Below the pieces are notes generated by a model. The model did no database searches and was not told the DNA's origin. It saw only the letters and a program-made list of their open reading frames with translations. From Crenobacter luteus (GTDB lineage: Bacteria; Pseudomonadota; Gammaproteobacteria; Burkholderiales; Chromobacteriaceae), in NCBI RefSeq assembly GCF_004345725.1, contig NZ_SLXG01000002.1, forward strand, positions 1-64,000: DNA of 64,000 nt, in the 5' to 3' direction. The translations under genes were made by a program, and so were the position numbers. Every line of letters begins with the position of its first letter. Position 1 is the first letter of the stretch. This document shows, in pieces, positions 4,026-37,224 of this stretch.

Positions 4026-4057
4026 AAGGCTCGGCCAACGTTGGCCGAGCCTTTTTT
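4026..4057 (+). terminator. intrinsic terminator built from an inverted pair of the TTGGCCGAG repeat
   Basis: AAGGCTCGGCCAAC directly abuts its complement GTTGGCCGAGCCTT, followed by a T run. The repeat copies sit at 4030-4038 and 4041-4049. It ends the aminotransferase transcript; the GNAT gene converges from the other side. Confidence 0.88.
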
Positions 4058-13829: not shown

Positions 13830-13867
13830 GAGGGCTCGGCCAACCCGGTTAGCTTGGCCGAGCCCTC
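13830..13867 (+). terminator. hairpin from a TTGGCCGAG inverted pair after engB
   Basis: GAGGGCTCGGCCAA pairs perfectly (14 bp) with TTGGCCGAGCCCTC around a 10-base loop. There is no following T run, so it may only pause or protect the RNA; a stronger terminator lies at 13993-14026. Confidence 0.6.
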
Positions 13868-19628: not shown

Positions 19629-20360
19629 TCAAGTTTTAGGGAAAATCGCCCTCGCGAGCACCCAGGCGTCGACCCGTTTCGCCCCCCTTTTTTTGAGGGC
19701 CGAGGCGAGCGCCGAGAGGGTCGAGCCGCTGCTGGCGACGTCGTCGACGATGGCGACACAAAGCCCGTGGAGTCCGGGCTCTACGCCAAAAGCATCGGCG
19801 AGATTGCGGCGTCTTGCGGCAAGGTCGAGCGAGGCCTGGCGGGCGGTGTTGCGTTTTCGCCAACACAGTCGTGGCGAAAAAGTGCCGCCGATTATAGCAG
19901 CCAGCGTGCGGGCCAGCGCGTCGCTCTGGTTGAAGCCGCGTTCGGCAAGCCGTTCTTTTGCCAGCGGAACCGGGATCACGAGGTCGGCCGAGCCGCCGGT
20001 CCGGCCGGCGAATTCGGCCAGCAGCGAGGCCAGCAAGGCGCCGTCGCCGAGCGCCCTGCCGTACTTGTAATGATGGATGAGCTCGGCGAGCGGATAGTCG
20101 TAGCGGTAGGGCGCGAACAGCGCGTCGAAGGCCGGCCGCTGCCGCTGGCAGCGGCCGCAGGGCGCGCCGTCGGGCAGCGCGACGGCCTGCGGTTCGGCGC
20201 ATACCGGGCACAAGGGGCCGGCGAGCGCCGGCAGCATCGCGCGGCAGCCGTCGCACAGGCCGTCCCGGCCACGGTAGCGGCCGCACAGGCGGCAGTCCTG
20301 TTGAAAAAACGGGCGCTTGTTCAGCAACTGGCCCTCCCAATTTGACAGCGCGGCAGGCAT
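19629..20360 (-). CDS. comF: ComF family competence protein / phosphoribosyltransferase-like
   Basis: A 243-residue cytoplasmic protein. The N-terminal zinc-ribbon region carries four CxxC-type pairs (CRLCG, CDGC, CPVC, CGRC), followed by a PRTase-fold domain with [19 protein letters not shown] and the PRPP-type loop [11 protein letters not shown]. ComF homologues are needed for natural transformation in Haemophilus and in Gram-positives, acting with ssDNA after uptake. This is the one competence-linked gene in the window, notable beside the DNA-uptake-like repeat. The start at ATG 20360 is likely; a TTG at about 20323 behind GGGAGGG is an alternative. Divergent from bioB. Confidence 0.88.
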
Positions 20361-20410
20361 CGCTCAGCATTGGCCGCACTCGCGTTCGTCCTTCAGGTTA
20401 TGTGAACATC

Positions 20411-21394
20411 ATGGAACAGGCTACCGTCCAGTTTTACCGTCCGCCGACGCTGCACCCGGAAACCCCGCGCTGGAGCGTCGAGGAAGTCGAGGCGCTGTTT
20501 GCGCTGCCTTTCATGGAGCTCGTCTACCGCGCCGCCGAGGTGCACCGCATGCACTTCGACCCGACCCGCGTCCAGCTGTCGACGCTGCTGTCGATCAAGA
20601 CCGGCGGCTGTCCGGAGGACTGCGGCTACTGCCCGCAGTCGGTGCATCACGACACGCCGGTCGAGAACGAGCCGATGCTGAGCGTCGAGCAGGTGGTCGC
20701 CGCCGCGCGCGCGGCCAAGGAGAACGGCGCCAGCCGCTTCTGCATGGGGGCCGCCTGGCGCGGCCCGAAGGACGAGGACCTGTCCAAGGCGATCGAGATG
20801 GTCGAGGCGGTCAAGGCGCTCGGTCTGGAGACCTGCGGCACCTTCGGCCTGTTGAAGGACGGCCAGGCGGAGCGGCTCAAGGAAGCCGGCCTCGACTACT
20901 ACAACCACAACCTCGACACCGCGCCCGACAAGTACGGCGACATCATCCACACGCGCGACTACGAGGACCGCCTCGATACGCTGGGCAAGGTGCGCCGCGC
21001 CGGCCTGAACGTCTGCTGCGGCGGCATCGTCGGCATGGACGAGACGCAGAACGACCGCGCCGGCCTGATCGCGCAGCTGGCCAACCTCGACCCGCAGCCG
21101 GAGTCGGTGCCGATCAACAACCTCGTCAAGGTCGACGGCACGCCGCTCGAGGACGCCGAGGCGCTCGACTGGACCGAGTTCGTGCGTACCATCGCGGTCG
21201 CGCGGCTGACGATGCCGCAAAGCTTCGTGCGCCTGTCGGCCGGCCGCCGTGCGATGCCGGAGGCGATGCAGGCGCTGTGCTTCCTCGCCGGCGCGAACTC
21301 GATCTTCTACGGCGACAAGCTGCTGACCACCGAGAACCCGGAAGAGAACTTCGACCGCGCGCTGCTGGCCAAGCTCGACATCACGCCGCTGTAG
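20411..21394 (+). CDS. bioB: biotin synthase
   Basis: A 327-residue radical SAM enzyme that inserts sulfur into dethiobiotin. The cluster-binding cysteines are C67, C71 and C74 in [32 protein letters not shown] (second-cluster cysteines) and [12 protein letters not shown] are conserved. ATG 20411 gives [12 protein letters not shown]; an upstream TTG would add unrelated residues. It is 50 bp from the divergent comF. A long AT-rich hairpin separates it from bioF, so the two biotin genes are probably not simply co-transcribed. Confidence 0.96.
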
Positions 21395-21433
21395 GCGCCG
21401 GCGCGACACTTATTTAGTTGTTCTTATATACCA

Positions 21434-21482
21434 GGCGATTTATCTGATAGCATCTCCTAATATGCTGTCTTGATAAATCGCC
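21434..21482. promoter_or_regulatory. 49-nt AT-rich hairpin between bioB and bioF
   Basis: GGCGATTTATC (21434-21444) and GATAAATCGCC (21472-21482) are perfect complements. Inside, GATAGCAT and ATGCTGTC pair with one G-U, leaving an 8-base loop. TTTCATTTT follows on the plus strand. It may be the bioB terminator, an attenuator in front of bioF, or an operator. The region is sharply AT-richer than its surroundings. Confidence 0.6.
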
Positions 21483-21503
21483 TTTCATTTTGATCCTGAT
21501 GAA

Positions 21504-22673
21504 ATGAATTCGAGACAGATCGCCGCGGCGTTGGCCGCGTTGGCCGACCAGCACCGCTTGCGTCGTCGTCCCGTCGTCGACACGCCGCAGGGTCCGCACG
21601 TCGTCGTCGACGGCGTGCGCTACCTCGCGTTCGCCAGCAACGACTATCTGGGGCTGGCCAATCACCCGGCCTTGGCCGAGGCGATGGCCGACGGCGTGGC
21701 GCGCTGGGGTACGGGTTCGGGCGCGTCGCATCTGGTCGCCGGCCATCACGCGGCGCACGAGGCGCTGGAGGACGAACTGGCCGTCTGGCTGGGGCTGCCG
21801 GCGGCGCTGACCTTCGGTTCGGGCTACTCGGCCAACCTCGCGGTGGTGACCAGCCTGGTCGGTCGCGGCGACGCGGTGTTCGCCGACCGGCTGAACCACG
21901 CGTCGTTGAACGACGCCTGCCAGCTGTCGCGCGCGACGTTCAGGCGCTTTGTCCACAACGACCTCGACCATCTGGAACGCCTGCTGGCGACGACGCCGGC
22001 GGCGACCCGGCTCATCGCGGTCGACGCGGTCTACAGCATGGACGGCGACGAGGCGCCGCTCGACGGGTTGCTGACCTTGGCCGAGCGCTACGACGCCTGG
22101 CTGTACCTGGACGACGCGCACGGTTTCGGTGTGCTCGGCGACGGGCGCGGCAGCCTTCACGAGCATCCGCGCCTGCTGGGCCATCCGCTGGTGGTCTACA
22201 TGGCGACGCTGGGCAAGGCGGCGGGCGTCGCCGGCGCCTGCGTCGCCGGTTCGCGCGAGCTGGTCGACTGGCTGGTCAACCGCGCGCGACCCTATATCTA
22301 CACCACGGCGCAGCCGCCGGCGGTGGCCGAGGCCTGCCGTGCGGCGCTGCGGGTGATGGCCGCCGAGCCGGCGCGCCGGGCGAGGCTGGCGGCGCACATT
22401 GTGCGCCTGCGGCGGGCGGCCGATGCAAAAGTATGGCCTTTGACTGCTTCCCGAACGCCGATTCAGCCCATTATCATTGGTCGTAACGAAGCTGTTCTAC
22501 AGTGTGCCGCCCGGCTGCGCGAGGCGGGGCTGTGGGTACCGGCGATCCGGCCGCCTACCGTGCCCGAGGGCGGCGCCAGATTGCGGGTGTCGTTGACCGC
22601 GGCCCACGAGGGGGCCGATATCGATCGTCTGATCGATGCCTTGGACAGCATCGACTGGGAGGAGAAGCCGTAG
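21504..22673 (+). CDS. bioF: 8-amino-7-oxononanoate synthase
   Basis: A 389-residue PLP enzyme of the alpha-oxoamine synthase family that joins pimeloyl-ACP and alanine in biotin synthesis. Conserved segments: YLAFASNDYLGLANHP, GTGSGASHLVAGHH, VYSMDGDEAPL, YLDDAHGFGVLG and the PLP lysine K238 in MATLGKAAGVAG. Length is normal. ATG 21504 has only a weak ribosome-binding site and follows the bioB/bioF hairpin by 21 bp. Repeat copies at 21672 and 22077 are read as LAE. Confidence 0.95.
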   Translation: MNSRQIAAALAALADQHRLRRRPVVDTPQGPHVVVDGVRYLAFASNDYLGLANHPALAEAMADGVARWGTGSGASHLVAGHHAAHEALEDELAVWLGLPAALTFGSGYSANLAVVTSLVGRGDAVFADRLNHASLNDACQLSRATFRRFVHNDLDHLERLLATTPAATRLIAVDAVYSMDGDEAPLDGLLTLAERYDAWLYLDDAHGFGVLGDGRGSLHEHPRLLGHPLVVYMATLGKAAGVAGACVAGSRELVDWLVNRARPYIYTTAQPPAVAEACRAALRVMAAEPARRARLAAHIVRLRRAADAKVWPLTASRTPIQPIIIGRNEAVLQCAARLREAGLWVPAIRPPTVPEGGARLRVSLTAAHEGADIDRLIDALDSIDWEEKP

Positions 22674-22730
22674 ACCGCGCGCCCGCGCCGCCCCCGAGGG
22701 AGGACGGAGAAAGCCGGCTACCATCACGCT

Positions 22731-25562
22731 ATGAAAAGCACGGCTGAATACCTGTTTTCCCCTGAGCAGGCGGCACGGACCGCGCTGACGCTCCTGGAGC
22801 AGTGGGGCGGGCTCGCCGCCGCCGCCGTCTGGTCGCGCGAGGACGGGCGCTGGCTGCGCATCGCAAAGACCGGCGCCGCCGACGCGCTGGTCGGGCCGGA
22901 CGAGCTCGCGCAGGGCCGCCAGCCCGGTCCGCAGGGCGGCGCGCTGGCGCTGGTGTCCGACGACGCCGAACTCGGCTGGCTGATCTGGCGCGGCGTGCCC
23001 GACCGCGACATCGGCGAGCTCGCGTCGCTGTTGACCGGTCACCTCGTCTGCGCGCGGCTGCGCGCCGAGCTGGCCGTCTCCCGCCTGACCCACGCGACCT
23101 TGCTCGACATCAGCCAGCTCGCCGACGAGGGGGCCTCGCTCGACGCCTTCCTGCCGCAGTTGCACCGACGCGTTTCCCGCCTGCTCGACCTGCGCAACTT
23201 CCAGCTCGCGCTGTACGACGAGGACGCCGGCACGCTGCGCTTTCCGTTCTTCTGCGACAGCCATGAGCCGGCGCCGGCGCCGAGCGCCGGCATTGCGCTC
23301 GGCGAGCGCCGCGTCGCGCTGATCGCCCACCTGATCCGCCACGGTCGTCCGCTGGTGCTCTCGCGCGACAATCTTGGCGCACTCGCCGAGCAGGCCGGTT
23401 TCGACGCCGGCCGCCTGCCGCGTTTCTGGCTCGGCGTGCCGCTGTTCAACGCCGGCGGCGGCGTGCTCGGCGCGGTGGTGGCGCAAGGCTACGACGAGCA
23501 GCGCCCGTTCTCCGTCGCCGAGCAGTCGCTGTTCCTGTTCGTCGCCCGCCACATCGGCTTCGCGCTCAGCAAGCTGTTGTACCGCACGCACCTGGAGCGC
23601 CAGGTCTGGGCGCGCACCTGCGAGCTCGAGGGCGCCAACGCGCGTCTGCGCGCCGAGATCGCCGAGCGCCAGCGCGCCGAGCGCCTGCAGGGCATGCTGT
23701 TCCGCATCGCCGAGCTGTCGAATACCAGCCTGTCGCTCGAAGCCTTCCTCGCCGGCCTGCACCGCCTGTTGGCCGAGGTGTTGCCGGCGGCCAACTGCCT
23801 AGTCGCGCTCTACGACATGGACGCCGACCTCTTGAGCTTCCCCTACTGCGCCGACGAGTACGCGCCGCAGCGCCGCGCGCGCCGTCCCGGGCGCGGCCTG
23901 ATCGAGAAGGTGCTGCACAGCGGGCGCGCGGTGCTCGAGCACGACGCCGAGCCGGACGGCGACCTGGCCGGGATTACGCCGCGGCTGGCTGCCTGGCTCG
24001 GCGTGCCGCTCTATTGCGAGCACCGGCTGATGGGCGTGCTGTCGGTGCACAGCTACGACGAGACCGCCCGCTATACCCTGCGCGACCGCGAGGTACTCGA
24101 GTTCGTCGCCAACCACATCGGCGCCGCGCTCTCGCGTGTCCGCGCGCTCGAGGCGTTGCAACTGGCGTACGGCGAGCTCGAGGAGCGCGTGCGCGAGCGC
24201 ACCAGCGCGCTCGACGCGGCCAACGCCCAGCTCGAGTTCGACAGCCTGCACGACCCGCTGACGCGGCTGCCCAACCGTACCTACTTCGGCAAGGCGCTCA
24301 AGCGCGCCTGGGATCACTACCGCAACGGCGGCGAGCGCTTCGCGGTGATGTTCATCGACCTGGACCGTTTCAAGCTGGTCAACGACACGCTCGGCCACCT
24401 GGCCGGCGACCACATGCTGTACGAGGCCGGCTCGCGCATCCGCGGCTGCCTGCGTCATTACGACTTCCTCGCCCGCCTCGGCGGCGACGAGTTCGCCGTG
24501 CTGCTGTTCGGCGCCGCCAGCTTCGAGGGCTGCGAGCCGATGGCGCGGCGCATCGTCGCCGAGTTCGAGACGCCGATCATGCTGTCCGGTCGCGAGGTGT
24601 TCACCTCGGCCAGCGTCGGCGTGGTGCTGGCCGACGCCGAGCACTACCTGCACGCCGAGGACCTGCTGCGCGACGCCGACCACGCGATGTACCGCACCAA
24701 GCAGCAGGGCCGCCAGGGCTACACGCTGTTCAACCACGAGCTGCGCCGCAACCAGGCCGACCAGCTCGCGCTCGAGTCGGAGCTGCGTCGCGCGCTCGAC
24801 GAGGACGGCCAGCTCGTCCCCTATTTCCAGCCCTTCGTCGACGCGCAAAGCGGCGCGCTGGTCGGCTTCGAGGCGCTGGTGCGCTGGCGCCACCCCGTGC
24901 GCGGCCTGATCCCGCCGGCGCTGTTCCTGCCGTTGGCCGAGGAGAGCGGGCTGGTCTCGCGGCTCGACCGCTACATGATCACGCAGGCCTGCCGCCAGTT
25001 CGCCGCCTGGCGCGCCGAGGGGCGGCCCGTCGAGCGGCTGTCGCTGCACCTGAACCTGTCCTCGGCCAACTTCCACGACCCCGGGCTGGTCGACTGGCTC
25101 GGCGCGCTGGTCGACGACTACGCGCTGCCGCCGGGCACGCTGCACCTCGAAGTCACCGAGAGCGCGCTGATCGACGTGCCCGACATCGCGGTCACCGTGA
25201 TGCAGGCGCTGACGCGGCTCGGCGTGCGCTTCGCGCTCGACGACTTCGGCACCGGCTACTCGGCGCTGTCCTACCTGCACCGCTACCGCTTCGACCTGCT
25301 GAAGATCGACCAGGCCTTCGTCGCCGAGGTCGACCGCAAGGAGGAATCGCAGGCCATCGTGCGCGCCATCCTCGCGCTGGCGGCGGCGCTCGGCCTCGAC
25401 GTGGTCGCCGAAGGCGTCGAGACCGCGTCGCAGCGCGACAAGCTCTGCGAGATGGGCTGCGCCAGGCTGCAGGGCTTCCACTTCGCACCGCCGGCGCCGG
25501 CGGCGGCGATCGACTGGGCGCGGCTCGGCGGTGAGGCCGAAACGGCGCTCGGCGTCGCCTGA
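22731..25562 (+). CDS. GAF-GAF-GGDEF-EAL c-di-GMP signalling protein
   Basis: A 943-residue soluble protein. After about 110 unassigned residues come two GAF-like domains (about 120-290 and 330-480, the repeated PLFNAGGGVLGAVVAQGYDE and PLYCEHRLMGVLSVHSYDE strands), a linker helix, GGDEF (584-588) and EAL (714-716). The GGDEF site is intact with an RxxD (RHYD) inhibitory site five residues before it, and the EAL domain keeps GFEALVRW, DDFGTGYSALSYL and AEGVET. It may therefore make and break c-di-GMP, controlled by ligands of the GAF domains. It splits the biotin gene group. Confidence 0.9.
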   Translation: MKSTAEYLFSPEQAARTALTLLEQWGGLAAAAVWSREDGRWLRIAKTGAADALVGPDELAQGRQPGPQGGALALVSDDAELGWLIWRGVPDRDIGELASLLTGHLVCARLRAELAVSRLTHATLLDISQLADEGASLDAFLPQLHRRVSRLLDLRNFQLALYDEDAGTLRFPFFCDSHEPAPAPSAGIALGERRVALIAHLIRHGRPLVLSRDNLGALAEQAGFDAGRLPRFWLGVPLFNAGGGVLGAVVAQGYDEQRPFSVAEQSLFLFVARHIGFALSKLLYRTHLERQVWARTCELEGANARLRAEIAERQRAERLQGMLFRIAELSNTSLSLEAFLAGLHRLLAEVLPAANCLVALYDMDADLLSFPYCADEYAPQRRARRPGRGLIEKVLHSGRAVLEHDAEPDGDLAGITPRLAAWLGVPLYCEHRLMGVLSVHSYDETARYTLRDREVLEFVANHIGAALSRVRALEALQLAYGELEERVRERTSALDAANAQLEFDSLHDPLTRLPNRTYFGKALKRAWDHYRNGGERFAVMFIDLDRFKLVNDTLGHLAGDHMLYEAGSRIRGCLRHYDFLARLGGDEFAVLLFGAASFEGCEPMARRIVAEFETPIMLSGREVFTSASVGVVLADAEHYLHAEDLLRDADHAMYRTKQQGRQGYTLFNHELRRNQADQLALESELRRALDEDGQLVPYFQPFVDAQSGALVGFEALVRWRHPVRGLIPPALFLPLAEESGLVSRLDRYMITQACRQFAAWRAEGRPVERLSLHLNLSSANFHDPGLVDWLGALVDDYALPPGTLHLEVTESALIDVPDIAVTVMQALTRLGVRFALDDFGTGYSALSYLHRYRFDLLKIDQAFVAEVDRKEESQAIVRAILALAAALGLDVVAEGVETASQRDKLCEMGCARLQGFHFAPPAPAAAIDWARLGGEAETALGVA

Positions 25563-29593: not shown

Positions 29594-29634
29594 AAACAGG
29601 CTCGGCCAACCGTGACGGTTGGCCGAGCCTGTTT
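29594..29634. terminator. terminator from a TTGGCCGAG inverted pair, between GST and Nudix genes
   Basis: A 19-bp perfect stem (29594-29612 with 29616-29634) closed by TGA, containing copies at 29601-29609 and 29619-29627. AAACAGG and CCTGTTT flank it, so it works for the plus-strand GST and the convergent minus-strand Nudix gene. Confidence 0.88.
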
Positions 29635-37183: not shown

Positions 37184-37224
37184 AAAAGCTCGGCCAACCT
37201 TCGACAAGGTTGGCCGAGCTTTTT
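37184..37224. terminator. bidirectional terminator from a TTGGCCGAG inverted pair
   Basis: AAAAAGCTCGGCCAACCTT pairs with AAGGTTGGCCGAGCTTTTT around a short CGAC loop; copies at 37189-37197 and 37210-37218. It separates azlD (+) from the convergent rodA (-), with A/T runs for both directions. Confidence 0.92.

Follow-up and report, generated by a model that had tools for sequence, protein, structure and literature searches.

The stretch of DNA analysed here, hereafter called the window, comprises 64,000 nucleotides (64 kb) and carries the biotin genes bioB and bioF on the same strand, with the bioB stop codon at 21392–21394, the start of bioF at 21504, and a gap of 109 nt between the two (Table 1). 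The genes bioH and bioC are located farther along (NCBIfam), with a gene for a GAF-GGDEF-EAL protein and another reading frame intervening. The GAF-GGDEF-EAL gene (22731–25562) directly follows bioF, and the start of a similar protein can be recognized by eye after bioF in locus L056; this neighbourhood may be conserved.

Table 1 Features of the bioB–bioF region and of an inverted repeat upstream of bioB in other genomes
Feature	Position	Strand	Remarks
bioB, biotin synthase	20411..21394	+	TIGR00433, 402.9 bits, cut-off 225 (NCBIfam)
bioF, 8-amino-7-oxononanoate synthase	21504..22673	+	TIGR00858, 464.1 bits, cut-off 426.45 (NCBIfam)
Hairpin	21433..21483	+	in the 109-nt bioB–bioF gap; 49-nt core 21434–21482
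5' outer arm AGGCGATTTATC	21433..21444	+	
Extended -10-like word TGATAGCAT	21445..21453	+	overlaps the 5' inner arm (21446–21453)
Loop CTCCTAAT	21454..21461	+	8 nt
3' inner arm ATGCTGTC	21462..21469	+	
3' outer arm GATAAATCGCCT	21472..21483	+	
T-rich tail TTTCATTTT	21483..21491	+	ATTTTTTTT in the sister species
TATATA	21425..21430	+	just 5' of the hairpin; sole copy in the window; recurs in the bioB–bioF gap of family members
Speculative pairing stretch	21465..21473	+	would pair with bioF codons 3–5 (21510–21518) if the 5' arm is absent
TTGTYAA-N17-TTTGACA inverted repeat	upstream of bioB		loci L131–L134 and L136–L138 of other genomes; absent from the present genus

The outer stem of the hairpin in the gap consists of 11 perfect pairs between GGCGATTTATC (21434–21444) and GATAAATCGCC (21472–21482), to which a twelfth, basal pair (A21433–T21483) can be added, and the inner stem of 8 bp, including one G-U, is formed by GATAGCAT (21446–21453) and ATGCTGTC (21462–21469). 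A 1x2 internal loop separates the two stems. The preliminary description of this DNA had claimed an AT-rich hairpin with just these stems between bioB and bioF, and its sequence, coordinates and pairing were all confirmed, as was its composition (41% GC for the 49 nt against 69.7% for the window). The base of the hairpin is GC-rich (GGCG/CGCC) and is immediately followed on the 3' side by the tail TTTCATTTT, which has 7 T in 9 nt and is interrupted. The distance from the bioB stop codon to the hairpin is about 38–39 nt, and that from the GC-closed stem to the bioF ATG is 21 nt.

The predicted fold is far more stable than expected from its composition. A 62-nt stretch gave −27.9 kcal/mol, whereas shuffled sequences averaged −8.75 (sd 2.43; z −7.9; none of 200 shuffles as stable), and in a 108-nt context the z value was −4.9. 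In a scan of the 64 kb with 52-nt windows at steps of 6 bases (10,659 rows, with the hairpin's own row present twice, and 20 shuffles each), an equal gain over shuffles was found for only four other rows, representing two loci, at about 29.6 and 37.2 kb, that are both inverted pairs of the repeat TTGGCCGAG, which makes the hairpin the third strongest locus by this measure. Its raw energy is unremarkable, since the window is GC-rich: 618 of the 10,659 rows are at least as stable, its own two included. The stem had a probability of about 1 in every context folded (five, then four contexts), with the basal A-U pair at 0.81–0.87, and no competing antiterminator structure was seen in these contexts. 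A terminator scan of both strands ranked the hairpin 5th among 116 non-overlapping candidates, tied with the 6th to one decimal; a simpler terminator scan missed it, perhaps because of the interrupted stem, and found no terminators at all where 1.5 were expected in shuffles.

The hairpin occurs once in the genome and is conserved in the one other genome of its genus that was compared. The 121-base stretch 21400–21520 has a single match in its own 2.86-Mb genome (G000), and when positions 21370–21560 were compared with 60 other genomes only G001, a sister species in the same genus, matched over nearly the whole query, at 72%. Twelve further genomes gave matches of just 22–37 bases, located in or next to the coding ends of bioB and bioF, and the hairpin sequence was not found outside the genus among the 60. 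In the alignment, G001 shares CTTATATAC, both stems and the T tail, and differs in the 5' flank, the loop and the internal loop. Nineteen of the 20 pairs are retained, 17 of them unchanged, one by a replacement of A-U by G-C on both sides and one with U-G in place of U-A; the twentieth, basal pair is gone, one G-U pair is kept in both species, and the tail of G001, ATTTTTTTT, has 8 T in 9 positions. Since the genus comparison involves only the two genomes G000 and G001, a compensatory change rests on a single pair, and a covariation control with two sequences is uninformative (240 of 500 shuffles equalled the observed value).

For comparison across the family, 41 bioB–bioF gaps were read with one scoring for all and 60 shuffles per gap. 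A first source of 30 loci, 24 of them from the family, contributed 12 gaps after the removal of the 6 loci of other families and of 12 loci whose contigs, by their equal lengths, were also represented among the named loci of the second source; a second source of 80 loci contributed 29, the other 51 lying outside the family as judged by title and identity (four of these 51, including two of Chitinimonas, had no bioB in the locus). One kept row is titled Xenophilus sp. AP218F, and genome G010, which belongs to the family and has a split bioB match, is outside the set. The starts of bioF were set by alignment to the BioF of the window, with extrapolation where the match began later. The rows are related and thus not independent. 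In 15 of the 41 gaps a terminator-like hairpin was equalled by at most one of 60 shuffles of the same gap; in 18 a candidate was equalled by 3 to 21 shuffles, and 8 had no candidate. The 15 include three of four Pseudogulbenkiania rows, both rows of the genus of Crenobacter oryzisoli, G022, two of seven Vogesella rows and three rows with Vogesella-like gaps, as well as G017 and Paludibacterium purpuratum, whose hairpins, on visual inspection, are unconvincing as terminators. All ten Chromobacterium rows and the other five Vogesella rows are among the 26 with a weak hairpin or none.

The strong gap hairpins are unrelated in sequence between genera. They are AT-rich in the present genus and have GC stems plus T runs in the Vogesella-type rows; those of three Pseudogulbenkiania rows and of the genus of C. 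oryzisoli consist of an inverted TTGGCCGAA. Nine of the 15 end 20 or 21 nt before the start of bioF, namely those of the present genus (2), Pseudogulbenkiania (3), the genus of C. oryzisoli (2), G022 (1) and, as the ninth, P. purpuratum, with a spacing of 20 and a weak hairpin. The distance is 30–36 nt in the Vogesella-type rows, 26–33 nt in the nine Chromobacterium rows with a candidate, and 54–82 nt in five others. Many Thiobacillus-type rows have a bioB–bioF spacing of 5 or 22 nt, which is too short for such a hairpin, so that bioB–bioF pairs can manage without it.

A repeat of another kind is common in this DNA. The word GTTGGCCGAG occurs 44 times in the 64 kb, with 0.28 expected from base composition, and sites of the repeat are found throughout the window (e.g. 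4027–4052, 13835–13862, 29597–29631 and 37188–37219). The repeat TTGGCCGAG is hugely over-represented in G000 and several relatives, as appears from the genome-wide counts of its core TTGGCCGA, with those of the reversed control word in brackets: G000 2192 (156), G001 2701 (163), G003 3176 (253), G002 1489 (201), G005 1699 (192) and G006 1737 (286), and furthermore G007 330 (191), G009 289 (201), G008 220 (220) and G004 175 (167). We take G002 to be the same strain as Lutiella nitroferrum 2002. Judged from its sequence, the repeat looks like a DNA uptake sequence, and its inverted pairs are predicted to form strong terminators. According to PMC3630211, inverted pairs of DNA uptake sequences provide terminators in Neisseriaceae, and no obvious uptake sequence is present in L. 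nitroferrum 2002, Pseudogulbenkiania NH8B, Laribacter and two Chromobacterium genomes. The two stronger hairpin loci of the window, being inverted pairs of the TTGGCCGA type, resemble these terminators of Neisseriaceae, and so do the gap hairpins of the three Pseudogulbenkiania rows and the genus of C. oryzisoli. The bioB–bioF hairpin of the present genus is unlike them in that it has no copy of the repeat: an inverted TTGGCCGA(G) pair was looked for, and TTGGCCGA is absent from the window between 16296 and 21540.

The best explanation for the hairpin, to which we assign a probability of roughly 0.6 from sequence evidence, is a partly efficient intrinsic terminator inside the operon that sets the ratio of bioB to bioF expression. 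It has two sequence features of an intrinsic terminator, a stable RNA hairpin with a GC-rich base and a T-rich tract directly 3' of it. Polymerase coming from bioB would meet the hairpin about 39 nt past the stop codon, followed by the T-rich tail; some polymerases would stop and the remainder would read through into bioF. At the 3' end of the bioB message the hairpin would in addition serve as a protective cap, and the net result would be more BioB than BioF from a single promoter. We infer co-transcription of the two genes, actual termination, its efficiency and its effect on the protein ratio from the arrangement described above. A further promoter could not fit into the 21 nt between hairpin and bioF. 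With complete termination, and with no promoter ahead of or within the hairpin, bioF would not be expressed; hence, either read-through is substantial or a promoter overlaps the hairpin. The preliminary description had proposed a control point for the biotin genes in the form of a terminator, an attenuator or an operator. The first of these is well supported by sequence, through the stability, the T tail, the rank in the terminator scan, the conservation in G001 and the gap hairpins of other genera; neither a biotin-responsive attenuator nor an operator is favoured by the results given below.

Internal terminators are an already known kind of element. Internal terminators of the stem-loop type, in which the stem is longer and Us are fewer, have been described in clostridial ABC operons, where they lower the expression of downstream genes (PMC9045158). 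The hairpin shares with those in the ABC-importer operons of Ruminiclostridium cellulolyticum (PMC9045158) the same-strand intergenic stem-loop, the long stem, a T tract that is poorer than in ordinary terminators, and a close downstream gene. It differs from that case in that biotin genes of a GC-rich betaproteobacterium are involved, that termination is predicted, and that a promoter-like word lies within the hairpin, the last being what is unusual here. Searches of the literature for bioB–bioF terminators and Chromobacterium bioB operons gave nothing on this gap among the matches listed.

A tentative alternative, clearly less probable than a terminator, is that polymerase reads through and that the stem-loop acts on the message as a processing or stability element, by blocking 3' exonucleases or by marking a cleavage site, so that within one message the bioB portion and the bioF portion would decay at different rates. 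Programmed differential decay in operons has been described (PMC5927463), and the position behind bioB, shortly before the presumed ribosome site of bioF, the spacing of 20–21 nt before bioF in several genera and the poor T tail of the Chromobacterium gap hairpins would suit such a role. A T tail would not be needed for it, however, and the tail is near-perfect in the sister species.

About as unlikely as that alternative, on present sequence evidence, is a scenario in which the bioB terminator contains the bioF promoter and the resulting shorter RNA can refold over the bioF start and alter translation. In this scenario the extended -10-like word TGATAGCATC in the 5' inner arm would direct transcription from the loop, near 21459–21460. 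The new RNA would lack the 5' arm and would therefore escape the hairpin at which bioB transcripts end; its freed 3' arm would cover the bioF start, so that the two transcripts would be translated differently. In the full-length RNA the terminator fold prevails with a probability of 0.999. In an RNA starting at 21460 the stretch 21465–21473 folds onto bioF codons 3–5 and covers the start, which counts against a promoter at this position; the pairing is partly kept in G001 and uses AGA, which accounts for 3 of 270 arginine codons in the eight genes counted. TATATA lies exactly 17 nt upstream of the TGATAGCATC hexamer and matches the -35 consensus at only 3 of 6 positions, and no consensus sigma-70 promoter was found in 20000–23000. 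Any TGNTANNNT occurs in 25% of gap shuffles and the exact TGNTAGCAT in 0.5%; when the whole window is shuffled, 24 of 100 versions contain at least one TGNTAGCAT, as does the real one. The extended -10-like word is thus weak evidence for a promoter. A consensus TATAAT is present inside the unrelated terminator-like hairpin of the same gap in the genus of C. oryzisoli, but a promoter word within the hairpin is not a family-wide trait, as only 4 of the 33 hairpin-bearing rows have one, two from the present genus and two from that of C. oryzisoli.

The two words were also followed outside the hairpin. TATATA, which the 64-kb window contains only at 21425, is present in 21 of the 41 gaps, with 2.1 expected from shuffles (the rows being non-independent), and of the 19 sites counted over the 203,560 bases of 29 named loci, 15 fall within the gap (2,809 bases). 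Outside the present genus it can often be read as a -10 element (TATAGT, TATAAG, TATAAT). It is unlike a biotin box because none of the 13 bioA loci read holds it, and TATATA as a box of the biotin regulon is therefore unsupported. Three copies of TATATATAAGGAA are present in G015, two of them beside genes that by eye have no relation to biotin. The pattern TGNTAGCATC has three sites in G000 (in the hairpin, ahead of bioA, and ahead of trmO at 16 bases from its start) and five in G001, including bioA and a gene judged trmO-like by eye; the others in G001 lie before a chemotaxis-type gene (by eye) and inside a reading frame, with one unassigned. The reversed control word has one site in G000 and four in G001. 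By eye, the pattern is found upstream of bioA in nine of 13 bioA loci. Its counts in G014, G006 and G015 are 9, 4 and 16 against 3, 2 and 5 for the reversed control, a small enrichment.

An operator, at which a repressor would bind the palindrome as DNA and control a bioF promoter inside it, is quite improbable. The -10-like word does lie within the palindrome, and the two-sided change that preserves pairing in G001 preserves palindromic symmetry as well. Yet the U-G pair of the sister species and the shared G-U pair suit RNA pairing and break DNA symmetry, and no regulon is seen because the element is single in the genome. Since gene pairs can lack such a hairpin and its sequence differs by genus, a simple role such as a partial polymerase stop fits better than a site read by one particular protein. 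The BirA operator has the consensus TTGTAAACC-N15-GGTTTACAA, of which the window has no match with up to 3 mismatches at spacing 15; the hairpin is like the BirA operator of bio genes in being an inverted repeat at a biotin locus and unlike it in sequence, as the preliminary description had remarked. The BioR box (TTATMKATAA) is matched best with 2 mismatches at 21424, one of 12 such sites in the window, and a BioR-type box at the hairpin was rejected for this reason.

A 2016 survey (PMC5343134) states that the BirA of beta- and alphaproteobacteria has lost its DNA-binding domain. The BirA of G000 (C6:127273–127962, L130) has an N-terminal HTH_11 match of 28.6 bits (cut-off 25), and BirA control is therefore possible in this family; by eye, the N-termini of BirA in G001, G003 and G015 look alike. 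The inverted repeat TTGTYAA-N{15,21}-TTTGACA is present upstream of bioB in seven of 13 genomes searched, with one site each and 17 nt between the halves. In an eighth genome the one match lies at another place, two genomes contain the reversed control a single time, and the repeat is absent from the present genus. The repeat overlaps the start of a divergent comF gene and is possibly a BirA-type operator or a coding constraint of comF. Several bioA upstream regions (L139–L151) contain, by eye, palindromes like TGAC-N7-GTCA, such as TGACAATTTGCGTCA in G001.

A biotin-responsive attenuator or riboswitch, as also suggested in the preliminary description, is very improbable. It would suit a terminator-like hairpin within a vitamin gene pair, but the stem has a probability of about 1 in the contexts folded, no competing structure was seen there, and the bioB stop codon is only 38 nt away; moreover, an Rfam search of 21300–21600 gave no match up to E = 1, and the hairpin sequence does not extend beyond the genus in the 60 other genomes searched. 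Biotin control of the hairpin, as far as the sequence can tell, is unsupported. Finally, the chance that this AT-rich island in a GC-rich genome is a dispersed repeat or a remnant of a mobile element, for which many copies elsewhere had been named as the sign, is close to nil, as there is one copy in the G000 assembly and the sister species carries it at the corresponding position.

The hairpin, most probably as an internal terminator, suggests a way in which unequal amounts of BioB and BioF may be set without a regulator. If a promoter inside the hairpin were real, it would provide a compact separation of the transcription of two genes, within about 100 bases. Terminator-like hairpins without sequence relationship occupy this gap in several genera of one family, in some cases at a near-equal distance from bioF.
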